DNA of 64,000 bases from contig NZ_RZNC01000004.1 of assembly GCF_004078655.1 (NCBI RefSeq), forward strand, positions 220,920 through 284,919, written 5' to 3'. Below, piece by piece: positions 48,152-52,027 of the stretch (within the stretch, counting starts at the first letter, position 1; each line of letters starts with the position of its first letter). The notes under the pieces are model-generated. The model saw only the letters and a program-made list of their open reading frames with translations, searched no databases and was not told the DNA's origin. The stretch is from Labedella populi (GTDB taxonomy: Bacteria; Actinomycetota; Actinomycetes; Actinomycetales; Microbacteriaceae). The translations under genes and the position numbers were made by a program.

Positions 48152-48667
48152 TCAGGGCCGGGCGTCAGGACCGGGCGTCGAGCCCGCTGACATCGCCCGC
48201 TCGCCGCGGAAGAAACGTGTCAGGAGCTGCGAGCACTGCTCCTCGTCGATTCCCCCGACGACCTCGACTCGGTGATTGAGCCGTCGATCACGCACGAGGT
48301 CGAAGGCGGAGCCCGCCGCTCCGGCTTTGTCGTCCCATGCCCCGAACACGAGCCGCTCGAGCCGCGCGGCGACGATGGCACCCGCGCACATGACACACGG
48401 TTCGAGTGTCACGACGATCGTCGACCCCTCGAGTCGCCAGTCGCCGAGGCGAGCCGCCGCGTCGCGGATCGCGAGGACCTCCGCATGGGCCGTCGGATCG
48501 TGACCGGCCTCTTTGCGGTTGTGTCCGCGACCGATCACGCGCCCGTCGGCGTCGAGGACGACGGCGCCGACGGGGACGTCCCCGGAGGCGAGAGCCACTT
48601 CGGCCTCCGCACGCGCGGCCGCCATCGCCTCGAGGAGCACGCGGTCGATGATCACGATGATCCGCAT
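48152..48667 (-). CDS. tadA: tRNA adenosine(34) deaminase
   Basis: A 171-residue zinc-dependent deaminase that converts A34 of tRNA-Arg(ACG) to inosine. The zinc and catalytic residues are in [19 protein letters not shown] (HAE, near residue 61) and [20 protein letters not shown] (PCVMC, near residue 92). The length is that of TadA. AAGG directly precedes the ATG at 48667; a GTG at 48655 after GGAAGG has better spacing and is an equally likely start. It diverges from upp. Confidence 0.92.
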
Positions 48668-48690
48668 CCTTCCGCGACGGGTGGAACCGG

Positions 48691-48696
48691 TAGGTT
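48691..48696 (+). promoter_or_regulatory. -10 element, leaderless upp
   Basis: TAGGTT stands 7 nt before the ATG at 48704. Confidence 0.5.
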
Positions 48697-48703
48697 AGAG
48701 CCT

Positions 48704-49336
48704 ATGCGAGTGCACGTTGCCGACCACCCCCTCATCACCCACAAGCTCACCGTCTTGCGGGACGAGCGGACCCCGTCGCCCGTGTTCCGCGCACTGACCG
48801 AGGAGCTCGTGACGCTGCTCGCCTACGAGGCGACGCGCAATGTGCGGACGGAGTCGGTGTCGATCCAGACGCCCGTCACGCAGACGATCGGGCTCGAGAT
48901 CAGCCGCCCTCGACCCCTCGTCGTCCCGATCCTGCGCGCCGGCCTCGGCATGCTCGACGGAATGGTCAAGCTCCTCCCGACCGCCGAAGTGGGCTTCCTC
49001 GGCATGGTGCGCAACGAGGAGACCCTCGAACCCACCACCTACGCCGAGCGACTCCCCGACGACCTGTCCGATCGGCAGTGCTTCGTCCTCGACCCGATGC
49101 TCGCGACCGGCGGCTCGCTCGGCGCCGCGATCGAGTTCCTCTTCGATCGCGGCGCCGTCGATGTGACGGCGATCTGCCTGCTCGCCGCCCCCGAGGGCGT
49201 CGCCGCTCTCGAGAAGGCCACGGAGGGCCGCGACGTCACGATCGTCCTCGGGTCGCTCGACGAGCGACTCAACGAGAACGGCTACATCGTGCCCGGTCTC
49301 GGCGACGCCGGTGACCGCCTCTACGGTCTCGTCTGA
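48704..49336 (+). CDS. upp: uracil phosphoribosyltransferase
   Basis: A 210-residue PRTase that makes UMP from uracil and PRPP. The N-terminal [20 protein letters not shown], the central [19 protein letters not shown] block ([14 protein letters not shown] near residue 75), the PRPP loop [20 protein letters not shown] near residue 128 and the C-terminal [18 protein letters not shown] with the uracil-binding GDAGDR are all present. The length is exact for Upp. The ATG is probably leaderless. Confidence 0.97.
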
Positions 49337-49481
49337 CGCGTCGAGGACTGCTCGAGTCGTCACGCACGTCCTGCGCCGACGCCTTCTTCGCGCGGAAAGA
49401 CCCCGCATGATCCGCGATTCCCGCCGGACGAGTCGAAGAACCTGCAATGTGACGCCGACATTCGTCACCTTGTGCAAAGAA
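49337..49481. other. non-coding gap after upp
   Basis: No gene, terminator hairpin or repeat stands out in these 145 bp. The region becomes AT-richer near the promoter at 49482. Confidence 0.5.
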
Positions 49482-49511
49482 TTGACACAGTTCTCCGGGC
49501 GTGTGTTTAAT
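49482..49511 (+). promoter_or_regulatory. consensus promoter of the Cys-rich leader ORF
   Basis: TTGACA (49482-49487) and TTTAAT (49506-49511) are separated by 18 bp, one of the best -35/-10 pairs in the window. The expected start site (49518 or 49519) coincides with the ATG of the small ORF. Confidence 0.75.
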
Positions 49512-49518
49512 CATGCAC

Positions 49519-49620
49519 ATGACTGACAACGCGTATGTCCTGGGCTCCGTCGAGCTTCATCGGACTGCCGGCATGATGATGGCCGGCCGCGTCTCCACCT
49601 GTTGTCGAATGTGCCGCTGA
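49519..49620 (+). CDS. leaderless Cys-rich leader peptide (33 aa)
   Basis: The small ORF codes for 33 residues, starting MTDNAYVLGSVELHRTAG and ending in STCCRMCR, with three Cys in the last six residues. It starts where transcription from the TTGACA/TTTAAT promoter should start, so it is probably translated without a leader. An in-frame ATG two codons earlier (49513) is the alternative. The Val-Glu-Leu-x-Arg then Cys-rich end resembles actinobacterial putative leader peptides, and clustered Cys codons near the stop recall cysteine-responsive attenuator ORFs of mycobacteria. It lies 204 nt upstream of a winged-helix regulator gene with possible alternative hairpins between them. Confidence 0.6.
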   Translation: MTDNAYVLGSVELHRTAGMMMAGRVSTCCRMCR

Positions 49621-49824
49621 TCCTGCGCCCTTCGTCCCGATCCCGTCCGACCGCGACAGCCGGTCTCGGAATCGCCGCGGGTTCCCAGGACCCCGCCGCC
49701 GACTGATCCCCCCGGGAGTCGGCACTCGAGAACCCACCCCGGGTTCGTCCCGAACACGTCGACACGGATCGACCGCTGTTCCGACCGACAGGTCGCATCG
49801 CCTTCATCATCAAGGACTCCTCTC
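49621..49824 (+). promoter_or_regulatory. leader region with hairpins before the winged-helix gene
   Basis: Three hairpins can form: GCCGACT with AGTCGGC (49698-49704, 49717-49723); GAACCC with GGGTTC (49730-49735, 49741-49746); and GTTCG with CGAAC (49743-49747, 49751-49755). The last two share bases 49743-49746 and exclude each other. AAGGA at 49812-49816 serves the ATG at 49825. The layout suggests attenuation coupled to translation of the small ORF, though no T-tract terminator is seen. Confidence 0.4.
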
Positions 49825-50538
49825 ATGTCTCTCGCTCACATCGACAGCCACCCCTCCTTCGAACAGCAGCTCGACCGCCGGCCCGCCTCCGAGGCGCACG
49901 GTCGTCGTTTGAGCGCCGTTCCCGCCGGAGCCGAGGCTCGCGGGTTCGTGCTCTACGTCGGTGTCGACGAAGCCAAGGCGGCCGCCGCGGGCACCGACCT
50001 CGGCGCTCTCGTCCAGGCCCTCAAGACCCTCGCAGCGGACCTCGTGCCGACTTCGGAGACGTACGCGGCCGTCGCCCTCGCCCCCGAGGGCGTCGGGGGC
50101 AGGGACGTCGACGTCGTTCGGCTCGCCCTCCAGGAACCGGCGGCGTTGGCCCGTCACCGCCACAGCGACGAGGACGAGGACGCAGACCTCGATCGAGCGC
50201 GCGACGGGGTCGTGATCGACATCTCCCGCAAGCGCGTCATCCTCGACAACGAGGTCACCTCCCTCACCTACAAGGAGTTCGAACTCCTCCAGTTCCTCGT
50301 CCTCCGCGAGGGCCGGACGGTCGGCCGTGCCGAACTCATCGAGTCGCTGTGGACGGCGGGCGACGAGGACGGCGCACCGAACGAGCGCACCATCGACGTC
50401 CACGTCCGCCGCCTCCGCTCGAAGCTCGGTCGCTACGAGGACATCGTCCGGACCGTGCGCGGCGTCGGGTACCGGTTCGACCGCCACGCGGACGTCTCCA
50501 TCCGGCACGCCTCGACCCCGTCCCCCGACCTCTTCTAG
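49825..50538 (+). CDS. orphan winged-helix (OmpR-type) transcriptional regulator
   Basis: A 237-residue regulator. The C-terminal OmpR/PhoB winged helix is complete (about residues 130-218): VVIDISRKRVILDNEVTSLT, KEFELLQFLVLREGRTVGRA, then NERTIDVHVRRLRSKLGRYE and TVRGVGYRFDRH. The N-terminal 100 residues do not show a receiver domain with a phosphorylatable Asp, so it is not a standard response regulator. No histidine kinase is adjacent. It follows the Cys-rich leader ORF, which may control it in response to cysteine or sulfur supply; the regulon is unknown. Confidence 0.85.
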   Translation: MSLAHIDSHPSFEQQLDRRPASEAHGRRLSAVPAGAEARGFVLYVGVDEAKAAAAGTDLGALVQALKTLAADLVPTSETYAAVALAPEGVGGRDVDVVRLALQEPAALARHRHSDEDEDADLDRARDGVVIDISRKRVILDNEVTSLTYKEFELLQFLVLREGRTVGRAELIESLWTAGDEDGAPNERTIDVHVRRLRSKLGRYEDIVRTVRGVGYRFDRHADVSIRHASTPSPDLF

Positions 50539-50548
50539 GGCGCGCTCC

Positions 50549-51925
50549 TCAGTTGTGGACGGAGACCTCCGTGCCGACCTGGGCGAAGCGGTAGACGGCC
50601 TCCGCAGCGCTGATCGGGAGATTGACGCAGCCGTGGCTCATCATCGCCCCGGCGCCGAAGTTGCTGTGCCAGTACGTGCCGTGGAGACCCTGGTCGCCGT
50701 TGAAGTATGTGACCCACGGCACATCCTTCGTGCAGTAGTCGTAGCCGTCGACGCACCCCATGTCTTGCTTGGTGAGTTGGGCATACACGCGGTAGTTGCC
50801 GTTGTCGGTCGGGCTCGCGGGCTTGCCGATCGCCATCCGGTACGTGGCCATGAGCTTCTCGTTCTCGTACAACCGGGTCACGCCGTCGCTCTTGTCGACA
50901 TCGATGCGGCGGTACAACTCGTGCGTCGCGGCCTCCTTGACCTCGACTGCGAGTTCGTAGACGCCGTCACCCTCGGCGAGCTGCTGCGCGAAGCTGGCAG
51001 CGACACCGTCGGTCGTGGGCAGCGCCCAGCCGTCCTGGCCCTTCTGGATCGTGCGGAGGTGCTTACCCGCCGAGTCGGTGACGATCTTCTCGTCGATGAC
51101 GGTCCGGGTGATCTTCTCGGGAAGGGTCGCGACGACGCCTCCGATGGCGTCCTGGTCGACGGTCACCGAGAAGTCCTCACCCTCGGCGGCGATCGTCAGC
51201 CACGAGGCCACCTCGGCCGGCGGCACGGCGACGGCCTTCTCCCCATCGATGTAGAAGCCGGCTTCGGAGATGAGGCTGTTCAGCTCGTCCACCTCGGTCT
51301 GCGCGTCCGCCGTCGTGATGGCGGCCTCGACCTCGCTCGCCTGCGGAACGACGGAAATCGCCCCTCCTCCGTCGGCGAGGGCTGCGGAGATGCCGGCGGC
51401 GAGCGCGTCGAGGTCGACACCGGTACCGGTCTGCGCTTCGGCGACCGTGTAAGCGGCTGCCGCCTCGTCGAAAACGACACCGGCGTCGACGGGGTCTGAA
51501 TAGAGGTCCGGGGCGGCCTCGCGCAACGCCGCAGCCGCAACCGCCTGATCGATCTCGACATCGAGGTCCAGGGAACCGGCGTTCCAGCTTCCGACATTCC
51601 ACAGCGGGTGGTCCGCGTGTGCCCGGTCCGCGACGGCCCGCGCATCGACGGACAGTCCGAGCTCGGCCCCCGTCAGGGAGACGCCGCCTCCCGCTCCGTC
51701 GATCGTGATCGCGGTCGACGCGAGGGACGTCATGATCGACTCCGCCGCAGCGTCGCTCGTCCGCCATCCGATCTCCGCGCCCGCTGCGCTCACACCGGGC
51801 GCGACGAGAAGGAGGGAGCACACCGTGGCACCGACGGCGAGGAGTCCGCCGGGAACGCCGAACCACAAACCGAGGTGGCGCTTCTTCGGGGCCGGCTCGT
51901 CCGGCGCCCACTCGTACTGAACCAC
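50549..51925 (-). CDS. L,D-transpeptidase (YkuD) with N-terminal anchor
   Basis: A 458-residue extracytoplasmic cell-wall enzyme. A short cytoplasmic start (KKRHLGLW) leads to one membrane helix (about residues 22-45). Then come about 280 residues of peptidoglycan-binding-like domain (PGdom/PG4-type), and the YkuD catalytic domain at the C-terminus with DQGLHGTYWHSNFG and MMSHGCVNLPISAAEA, which hold the catalytic His and Cys. It would form 3-3 cross-links or attach proteins to peptidoglycan. The GTG at 51925 follows GGGAGAG; a GTG at 51943 is the alternative. A TAGCAT at 51978-51983 may be the -10. Confidence 0.92.
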   Translation of the reverse strand: MVQYEWAPDEPAPKKRHLGLWFGVPGGLLAVGATVCSLLLVAPGVSAAGAEIGWRTSDAAAESIMTSLASTAITIDGAGGGVSLTGAELGLSVDARAVADRAHADHPLWNVGSWNAGSLDLDVEIDQAVAAAALREAAPDLYSDPVDAGVVFDEAAAAYTVAEAQTGTGVDLDALAAGISAALADGGGAISVVPQASEVEAAITTADAQTEVDELNSLISEAGFYIDGEKAVAVPPAEVASWLTIAAEGEDFSVTVDQDAIGGVVATLPEKITRTVIDEKIVTDSAGKHLRTIQKGQDGWALPTTDGVAASFAQQLAEGDGVYELAVEVKEAATHELYRRIDVDKSDGVTRLYENEKLMATYRMAIGKPASPTDNGNYRVYAQLTKQDMGCVDGYDYCTKDVPWVTYFNGDQGLHGTYWHSNFGAGAMMSHGCVNLPISAAEAVYRFAQVGTEVSVHN

Positions 51926-52027
51926 GACTCTCCCGACCTCCACACGCGCCGGACCCCCCGGCGAGACACGTCAGTCCATGCTAAGCGCGGCGCAGGCGAA
52001 TCCGCGCATACCCATCTCACGAATCGG

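Follow-up and report, generated by a model that had tools for sequence, protein, structure and literature searches.

Polycysteine leaderless short ORFs of mycobacteria were reportedly described by Canestrari in 2020. Mycobacterial leaderless upstream ORFs (uORFs) with clusters of cysteine codons at their ends were first noted in PMC4633059 and appear also in PMC9031893, and excerpts of these two papers and of PMC13236596 and PMC9094748 report such uORFs as attenuators; within these excerpts, they precede cysteine-metabolic or hypothetical genes. For the tna leader of E. coli, an excerpt of PMC8429421 describes that a ribosome stalled at the stop codon blocks the rut site from Rho, and for the CruR leader an excerpt of PMC9426467 describes a bubble with more C than G after the leader ORF and a stalled leader ribosome that keeps Rho away. 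In the open-licence papers searched, no paper was found on a uORF before the regulator treated here.

The locus lies in a window of 64,000 nucleotides from Labedella populi, by which we mean the whole stretch of DNA that was analysed, and it has the following features:

48152–48667, − strand: tRNA adenosine deaminase-kind gene, divergent from upp (PF14437 and PF00383; name inferred from Pfam)
48704–49336: uracil phosphoribosyltransferase gene (upp), upstream of the leader (PF14681; gene name inferred from the Pfam match)
49482–49487, + strand: −35 hexamer TTGACA (sequence; relatives show TTGAC at the same place)
49506–49511, + strand: −10 hexamer TTTAAT (sequence; 18-nt spacer from TTGACA)
49519–49620, + strand: uORF of the leader with 33 codons and a TGA, predicted to be leaderless (frame conserved across the family)
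49544–49555, + strand: small hairpin GCTC-CGTC-GAGC inside the uORF (6 of 61 sequences have G-C in place of C-G, a change on both sides)
49567–49587, + strand: hairpin GCCGG...CCGGC around the ATGATGATG (Met) codons (pairing in 86% of cells; in 4 of 61 sequences one C-G pair has become U-A)
49600–49617, + strand: sensor-like tail TGT TGT CGA ATG TGC CGC (CCRMCR; codon counts in 93 relatives)
49606–49611, + strand: CGA-ATG pair within the tail (invariant among 93 relatives)
49621–49824, + strand: C-rich, G-poor spacer of 204 nt, candidate premature-termination site (C/G ratio; relatives)
49812–49816, + strand: AAGGA ribosome-binding site of the regulator gene (sequence)
49825–50538, + strand: orphan winged-helix (OmpR/PhoB-type) regulator, 237 aa (PF00486; family orthologues)
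50549–51943: YkuD L,D-transpeptidase gene, downstream and convergent with the regulator (name inferred from the Pfam match)

As far as the excerpts describe them, the mycobacterial polycysteine ORFs resemble the present uORF in that it is predicted to be leaderless and to come first in the transcript, has its Cys codons clustered at the end and belongs to an actinobacterium. However, the presumed target here is an orphan transcription factor and not a sulfur gene, the Cys codons range in number from one to six and are interleaved with an invariant CGA-ATG, most members have a Met run, and a C-rich spacer follows. With TnaC of the E. coli tryptophanase operon the locus shares a short leader whose critical part lies at the stop codon and is followed by a possible Rho-recruiting stretch, but TnaC arrests on free tryptophan, whereas here a shortage of charged tRNA is proposed and a role of Rho is deduced from composition only. 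The copper-responsive CruR of Bordetella likewise has a bubble of C over G behind the stalling place and a Cys-containing leader peptide, but belongs to DUF2946, is longer and carries CXXC and RAPP motifs, both of which the present uORF lacks. Finally, the whiB7/wblC uORF of actinobacteria controls a transcription factor gene, as the present leader would; whiB7 is set apart by its description as a sensor of many translation stresses, and the Cys tail and CGA-ATG belong to the present leader.

The earlier note had proposed that a TTGACA/TTTAAT promoter starts transcription at or next to the ATG of a 33-codon ORF. Both hexamers are present in the sequence, with the ATG (49519) 7 nt past the −10 box TTTAAT, and among the 143 family loci that passed the strict filter described below, this distance is 6 to 8 nt in 139. 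The further claims that the ORF ends in STCCRMCR and is followed by 204 nt and then by the regulator, and that this regulator is an OmpR-type DNA-binding protein without a receiver domain, agree with the sequence and with the Pfam result, and the gene content bears out a transcription factor as the putative target. The uORF translates as MTDNAYVLGSVELHRTAGMMMAGRVSTCCRMCR, with the C-terminal STCCRMCR and the TGA at 49618–49620. Two further in-frame starts lie nearby (ATG 49513, GTG 49501); the start was set at 49519 because a locus of the same genus (L082) starts there and lacks an ATG at the position equivalent to 49513. From the promoter-like hexamers, the 5′ end is predicted to coincide with the uORF ATG. 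A strict promoter scan of 48400–51200 listed no promoter; its rule demands an A as the second base of the −10 hexamer, hence TTTAAT was left unlisted. An Rfam gathering scan of the whole window returned one tRNA only, so no known RNA family was found at the leader, and the uORF peptide had no NCBIfam match.

In the regulator protein, PF00486 at residues 144–218 is the sole Pfam match (E 1e-21, 77.2 bits, cut-off 26.2); no Pfam match to a receiver domain was found, and we hence call the protein an orphan winged-helix regulator. AlphaFold2 gave a poor model of its N-terminal part; the mean pLDDT was 65.2, and values were below 50 over residues 1–38, 82–114 and 230–237. The best named protein matches are from Labedella (Microbacteriaceae), with 88–92% identity. 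Among solved sequences, those closest to residues 109–222 are 8hig, 8hml and 8hih, all OmpR family regulators; 8hig and 8hih are probably GlnR, the nitrogen regulator.

The regulator query matched at E ≤ 0.001 in all 100 genomes drawn from the Microbacteriaceae; the weakest match (G015, E 1.1e-8), which is unlikely to come from an orthologue, does not figure among the loci collected. The first collection comprised 110 loci, some of them duplicates, and in 103 a uORF was found by a Cys/CRM tail pattern. Four loci (L009, L050, L060, L070) have a uORF in which the last Cys is replaced, the Clavibacter loci L074 and L076 have a uORF with one Cys and the tail SCRMSA, and L016 is cut by a contig end. 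From 69 further best hits beyond the first loci, 67 were taken; G072, which is the place of L062, and G075, where the contig start is close to the gene, were omitted. Removal of 15 duplicates and of the cut locus left 161 distinct loci. A strict filter demanded CGAATG, an in-frame stop at most 8 codons on, and an in-frame ATG or GTG with −35-like and −10-like hexamers at the right distance. By this filter, an equivalent uORF precedes the orthologous winged-helix gene in 143 of the 161 loci, and the opposite strands, taken as a control, gave 2 hits. Of the 18 failures, 8 keep an in-frame CGAATG tail and fail the promoter rule only (L011, L074, L076, L095, L137, L149, L155, L173), four have Met/Cys tails without CGA (L195–L198), and one (L185) has a Met/Cys uORF of a different form. 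No convincing uORF was found in 4 of the 161 loci (L186, L187, L190, L191). The leader of L153 looks decayed, as it keeps the promoter and the first half and has lost the Cys tail; this locus is a natural near-deletion and could show how the regulator behaves without its leader.

The reading frame was followed in a frame-free test, which looked for TTGAC, a −10-like hexamer after 17–19 nt, a start codon 6–8 nt on and then the first CGAATG. It located both elements in 134 of the 161 loci (27 were not located), and in all 134 the predicted start and CGAATG share a frame. Because the frame is kept in all of these loci and the uORF is conserved family-wide, we take the comparison as strong evidence that the uORF is translated; the family loci are not independent events, since one common origin is likely. 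In the strict-filter set the called uORFs are 8 to 45 codons long. The called lengths of 11–13 codons (L146, L147, L169) probably represent internal starts of longer ORFs, and the shortest uORF, VILRRMCA (L181, 8 codons), consists of the core only. Most of the peptide is conserved, beyond the tail alone. The motif TGYCGAATGTGYSSCTRR occurs 15 times in 14 of the 40 genomes searched, and a reversed control pattern had no occurrence; 12 of the hits lie just upstream of the regulator and one elsewhere (G020, contig 33, 29522–29539, + strand), and the positions of the hits in G246 and G247 relative to the regulator are outside that tally. Taken together, as judged from sequence comparison, this is a real and conserved leader ORF that is predicted to be leaderless.

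All 143 uORFs of the strict-filter set have at least one Cys in their last 12 residues and 140 have at least two, which corresponds to the clustered Cys codons of the mycobacterial attenuators; in the window the cluster is CC.C. In 93 non-identical uORFs, the last six codons before the stop encode Cys (86/93), Cys (93/93), Arg (93/93), Met (93/93), Cys (88/93) and Arg or Ala (91/93), where the frequencies of Cys and Arg-Met are partly selected, as this set was gathered mainly by the Cys/CRM tail pattern, and the choices of CGA and TGT are not. The Arg at −4 is encoded by CGA in 93 of 93 uORFs, whereas CGA accounts for 58 of 2,309 Arg codons of the regulator genes and for 205 of 1,664 of the upp frames. 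TGT encodes the Cys at −6 in 81 of 86 cases, compared with 35 of 237 in the upp frames. At −5, where the residue is Cys throughout, TGT (56) alternates with TGC (37), as expected if the amino acid and not the codon is kept. The number of Cys codons ranges from one (VILRRMCA in L181, SCRMSA in Clavibacter) to six (L170), and divergent tails include MCMCMCMCR (L196) and CACRMCCCC (L170). Among the aligned leaders, the codon pair CGA-ATG is more constant than any other element, including the run of Cys codons.

The note had also likened the Cys codons close to the stop to the logic of the cysteine-responsive attenuators. This stands in so far as these codons are conserved, but the most invariant element is CGA-ATG, the Cys codons can be down to one, and Met accompanies or replaces Cys in distant relatives. 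Conservation of the ORF and of its Cys codons in relatives, for which the note had proposed to search, was found across the family, and Cys uORFs also precede many, but not all, homologues in other families of the order; overall, the earlier interpretation is partly supported. The invariant Arg-Met and the CGA codon exceed what Cys starvation alone would need and count against a cysteine-gated reading. CGA is decoded by an inosine-bearing tRNA, and from this mode of decoding the CGA-AUG pair is likely to be a built-in slow site; its invariance makes it a natural test of codon-pair pausing in bacteria. The tadA-kind gene (48152–48667, − strand) sits one gene upstream of the leader region, near the promoter. 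tRNA adenosine deaminases of this kind make the inosine by which tRNA-Arg reads CGA, and the presence of this neighbour next to a leader with an invariant CGA may be a coincidence.

The region between the uORF and the regulator has an unusual base composition. As in the stretches past the stalling places of TnaC and CruR, the spacer is C-rich and G-poor: C exceeds G in 92 of 92 loci, and the C/G ratio is at least 1.5 in 88 of 92, compared with 2 of 92 regulator coding sequences and 0 of 90 regions of 600 nt upstream. In the window, the spacer from 49621 to 49812 has a C/G ratio of 1.64, which is reached by 0.36% of 5,318 segments of the same size on both strands. Among 25 upstream regions of the window, delimited by crude gene calls, the leader spacer alone reaches at least 1.5 (1.67; median 1.04). 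The bias extends to 36 divergent loci (38 were queried, one key was not found, and one spacer was too short), with C/G above 1 in 36 of 36 and at least 1.5 in 28 of 36.

We propose tentatively, with a confidence slightly short of even, that the uORF is a cis-acting attenuator of the winged-helix regulator gene that is gated by cysteine, and perhaps by methionine. The transcript would start at the ATG, and the leading ribosome would translate the uORF. When charged Cys-tRNA (perhaps Met-tRNA) is plentiful, the ribosome would complete the uORF and depart, and the exposed C-rich spacer would lead to early termination before the regulator gene, which would likely be Rho-dependent. When Cys is short, the ribosome would linger at UGU-UGU-CGA-AUG-UGY beside the stop, a place at which CGA should slow it, and would cover the spacer; the regulator would then be produced and would in turn tune genes that serve to acquire reduced sulfur. 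Cys is favoured as the signal because the Cys codons (with Met) are kept through all changes, occupy the position of sensor codons and recall the Cys clusters of the mycobacterial attenuators. The Cys and CGA-AUG codons are at most six codons away from the stop, so that a ribosome halted on them would extend over part of the spacer; this position, the excess of C over G and the precedents of CruR and tna are the reasons why transcription attenuation, likely by Rho, is preferred. If the proposal is true, the ribosome would read a nutrient signal once and the regulator would broadcast it, and the regulon of the regulator could be tested by cysteine limitation.

A close rival of the Rho reading keeps the leader and the signal but assumes a readout by RNA structure, in which alternative hairpins either terminate transcription without Rho or hide the ribosome-binding site. 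Although we regard it as unlikely, several observations favour it. The spacers of 35 chosen loci are predicted to be more stable than their shuffled versions (mean z −2.1; −1.0 for the window). This is at odds with the unstructured stretch expected of Rho-gating leaders, but the leader may still work like one. GGATGC was found in 30 of 143 spacers (3.6 after shuffling) and GCATCC in 54 (16.3 after shuffling), and a hairpin follows a CTCC motif in 28 of 88 anchored loci, compared with 11.2 after shuffling. The predicted stable folds and this hairpin suit attenuation by structure at least as well as a Rho site on its own. In addition, a citing passage in PMC13236596 reports translation attenuation for M. 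smegmatis.

The uORF itself also shows signs of structure. On 61 sequences, namely those of L001–L080 and the window that have Met codons at the usual place, with L054 left out, its three named helices together pair in 88.3% of cells, compared with at most 46.2% when they are slid. The proposed attenuator gives the uORF hairpins no part to play, which counts against it. The covariation score of 0.104 exceeds those of all 500 shuffles (mean 0.060), which is to be read with the caution that kinship among sequences may suffice to outscore such shuffles where there is no structure. Of the five covariation measures, two stay within the shuffles: the 4 pairs changed on both sides (reached by 37 of 500) and the 12 further pair types (108 of 500). 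The compensatory both-side changes, which would favour a readout by structure, fall in the two inner uORF hairpins and none in the start-codon stem, in which AUGAC pairs with the GUCAU before the Cys codons in 85% of cells.

Three results speak against the structural readout. A duplex test with five uORF segments in 75–83 loci led us to reject a family-wide uORF-spacer pairing (mean z −0.28 to +0.24), no intrinsic-terminator-like site was found in 48400–51200, and in the predicted ensembles of 35 loci the ribosome-binding site of the regulator is about half unpaired (mean 0.51). One clade might nevertheless have such a readout, as eight loci (L019, L030, L032, L034, L038, L051, L055, L072) have GAAGG...CCCTTC (or ACCTTC)...AAGGA before the regulator start, and the CCTTC could pair with either side and thereby hide or free the ribosome-binding site. 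In the window, ATGATGATG of the uORF looks complementary to CATCATCA at 49805–49812, just before the ribosome-binding site of the regulator; this pairing was discarded as a family-wide mechanism on account of the duplex test and because CATCAT occurs in several lineages that have no Met run and is missing from several that have one.

The remaining alternatives question the signal or the cis action rather than the readout. The leader could be a general sensor of translation stress in the manner of whiB7, such that any slowing in the leader, for example by antibiotics, would raise the regulator, and Cys and CGA would merely be slow places. That a transcription factor is the target in both cases, that the invariant CGA-ATG is not a Cys feature, and that whiB7 responds to several antibiotics and to amino acid starvation (according to an excerpt of PMC12121999) fit such a sensor. 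However, all 143 uORFs keep Cys, the version of 8 codons included, and leaders that have lost CGA (L195–L198) again show Met/Cys codons, so that we hold this explanation to be improbable. Lower still is our confidence in a nascent-peptide or metal sensor, in which a Met/Cys-rich peptide would bind copper or a small molecule and alter stalling as in CruR: tails such as MCMCMCMCR and MMMCMCMMHR would suit it, and CruR senses copper by its CXXC motif and acts through Rho (excerpt of PMC9426467), but the Cys residues here are at the very end of the peptide and would still be deep in the ribosome, and L181 makes do with 8 codons. Least probable of all is a small protein that acts in trans and lies before the regulator as a matter of operon organisation, for although most of the peptide is conserved beyond its tail, the codon-level constraint (CGA 93/93), the hairpins in the coding sequence, the spread in length from 8 to 45 codons and the unrelated Met/Cys tails of the outer relatives fit a cis leader better.

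The cysteine-gated reading was set beside the sulfur genes of the host. PF01507, the PAPS reductase family, which we take to contain also the small subunit of sulfate adenylyltransferase, had no match in the own genome or in 3 other genomes of the genus; it was found in 1 of 16 sampled family genomes (15 of 16 are without it), compared with 14 of 14 control genomes. PF01077 (sulfite/nitrite reductase) had no match in the own genome either, and 11 of the 14 controls match. A cysK gene is present (450.8 bits, above the cut-off). Judging from this gene content, the host probably makes cysteine from sulfide and cannot reduce sulfate by the usual route, and its cysteine supply should therefore depend on reduced sulfur from outside. 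Against the cysteine-gated reading, a filter similar to the one used above, uncalibrated on a known mycobacterial case, detected no Cys-uORF at two cysK-like loci in the own genome, nor at 5 of 8 PF01507 loci of other genomes. In the open-licence papers searched, nothing usable was found on what Clavibacter and Leifsonia require as sulfur sources.

Leaders of related kinds occur beyond the family. In an order-level draw of 149 genomes, the regulator matched at E ≤ 1e-25 in 34, of which 24 are outside the Microbacteriaceae, and 21 loci from outside the family were taken (10 from family f6, 7 from f7, 1 from f9 and 3 from f12). In f6, 6 of the 10 loci (L113, L114, L115, L116, L118, L120) have a GTG-started uORF that ends in CCRM[HQ]A, CCRRMQA or RRMPR, the tail TGTCGTCGAATGCACGCGTAG is present in L112, out of frame with its GTG, and no uORF was found in L111, L117 and L119. 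Arthrobacter sp. ERGS1:01 (Micrococcaceae), of the same kind as f6, has a uORF ending in CSCRMPA. Leaders built around Cys-Val-Arg (MLCVRD, MRCVRGLR, PCVRCR, RCVRGR) were observed in 6 of the 7 f7 loci, and no leader was found in the seventh (L124). The single f9 locus has the leader MCRCACCCQN, and all 3 f12 loci have Met-run leaders in which the run holds 0–2 Cys and the peptides end alike in RQPS[LI]. In f9 and f12, the regulator match lies for the most part in the DNA-binding region, so these leaders may be either related or convergent; in both cases, the same position is again occupied by Met and Cys codons.

What is new is a leader of the cysteine-attenuator kind before an orphan transcription factor, present in nearly every sampled member of a large soil and plant family. 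It is possible, though we hold this broader view with more reserve than the attenuator itself, that the leader serves as a family-wide gauge of sulfur amino acids: bacteria that appear to have lost sulfate reduction would read the supply for Cys and Met codons by a leaderless leader with a CGA-AUG pause and would set a transcription factor and its regulon instead of one operon, and distant kin would use poly-Met or poly-Cys leaders at the same place.

Two minor observations concern the loci outside the family. The Met-run uORFs of the f12 loci L126, L129 and L131 (for example MMMDMMMMMRMMRRQPSI) lie about 470–610 nt before the regulator match and are possibly the methionine counterpart of the cysteine leader. 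In the f7 loci L121, L122 and L125, repeats such as GTCATAAAACGTCATAAAAG or GTCACATTCGGTCATATTCG, about 10 bp apart, were seen by eye upstream of the uORF promoter and are a possible binding site for an OmpR-type protein; GTCAYA repeats were likewise seen by eye upstream of f7 uORFs.
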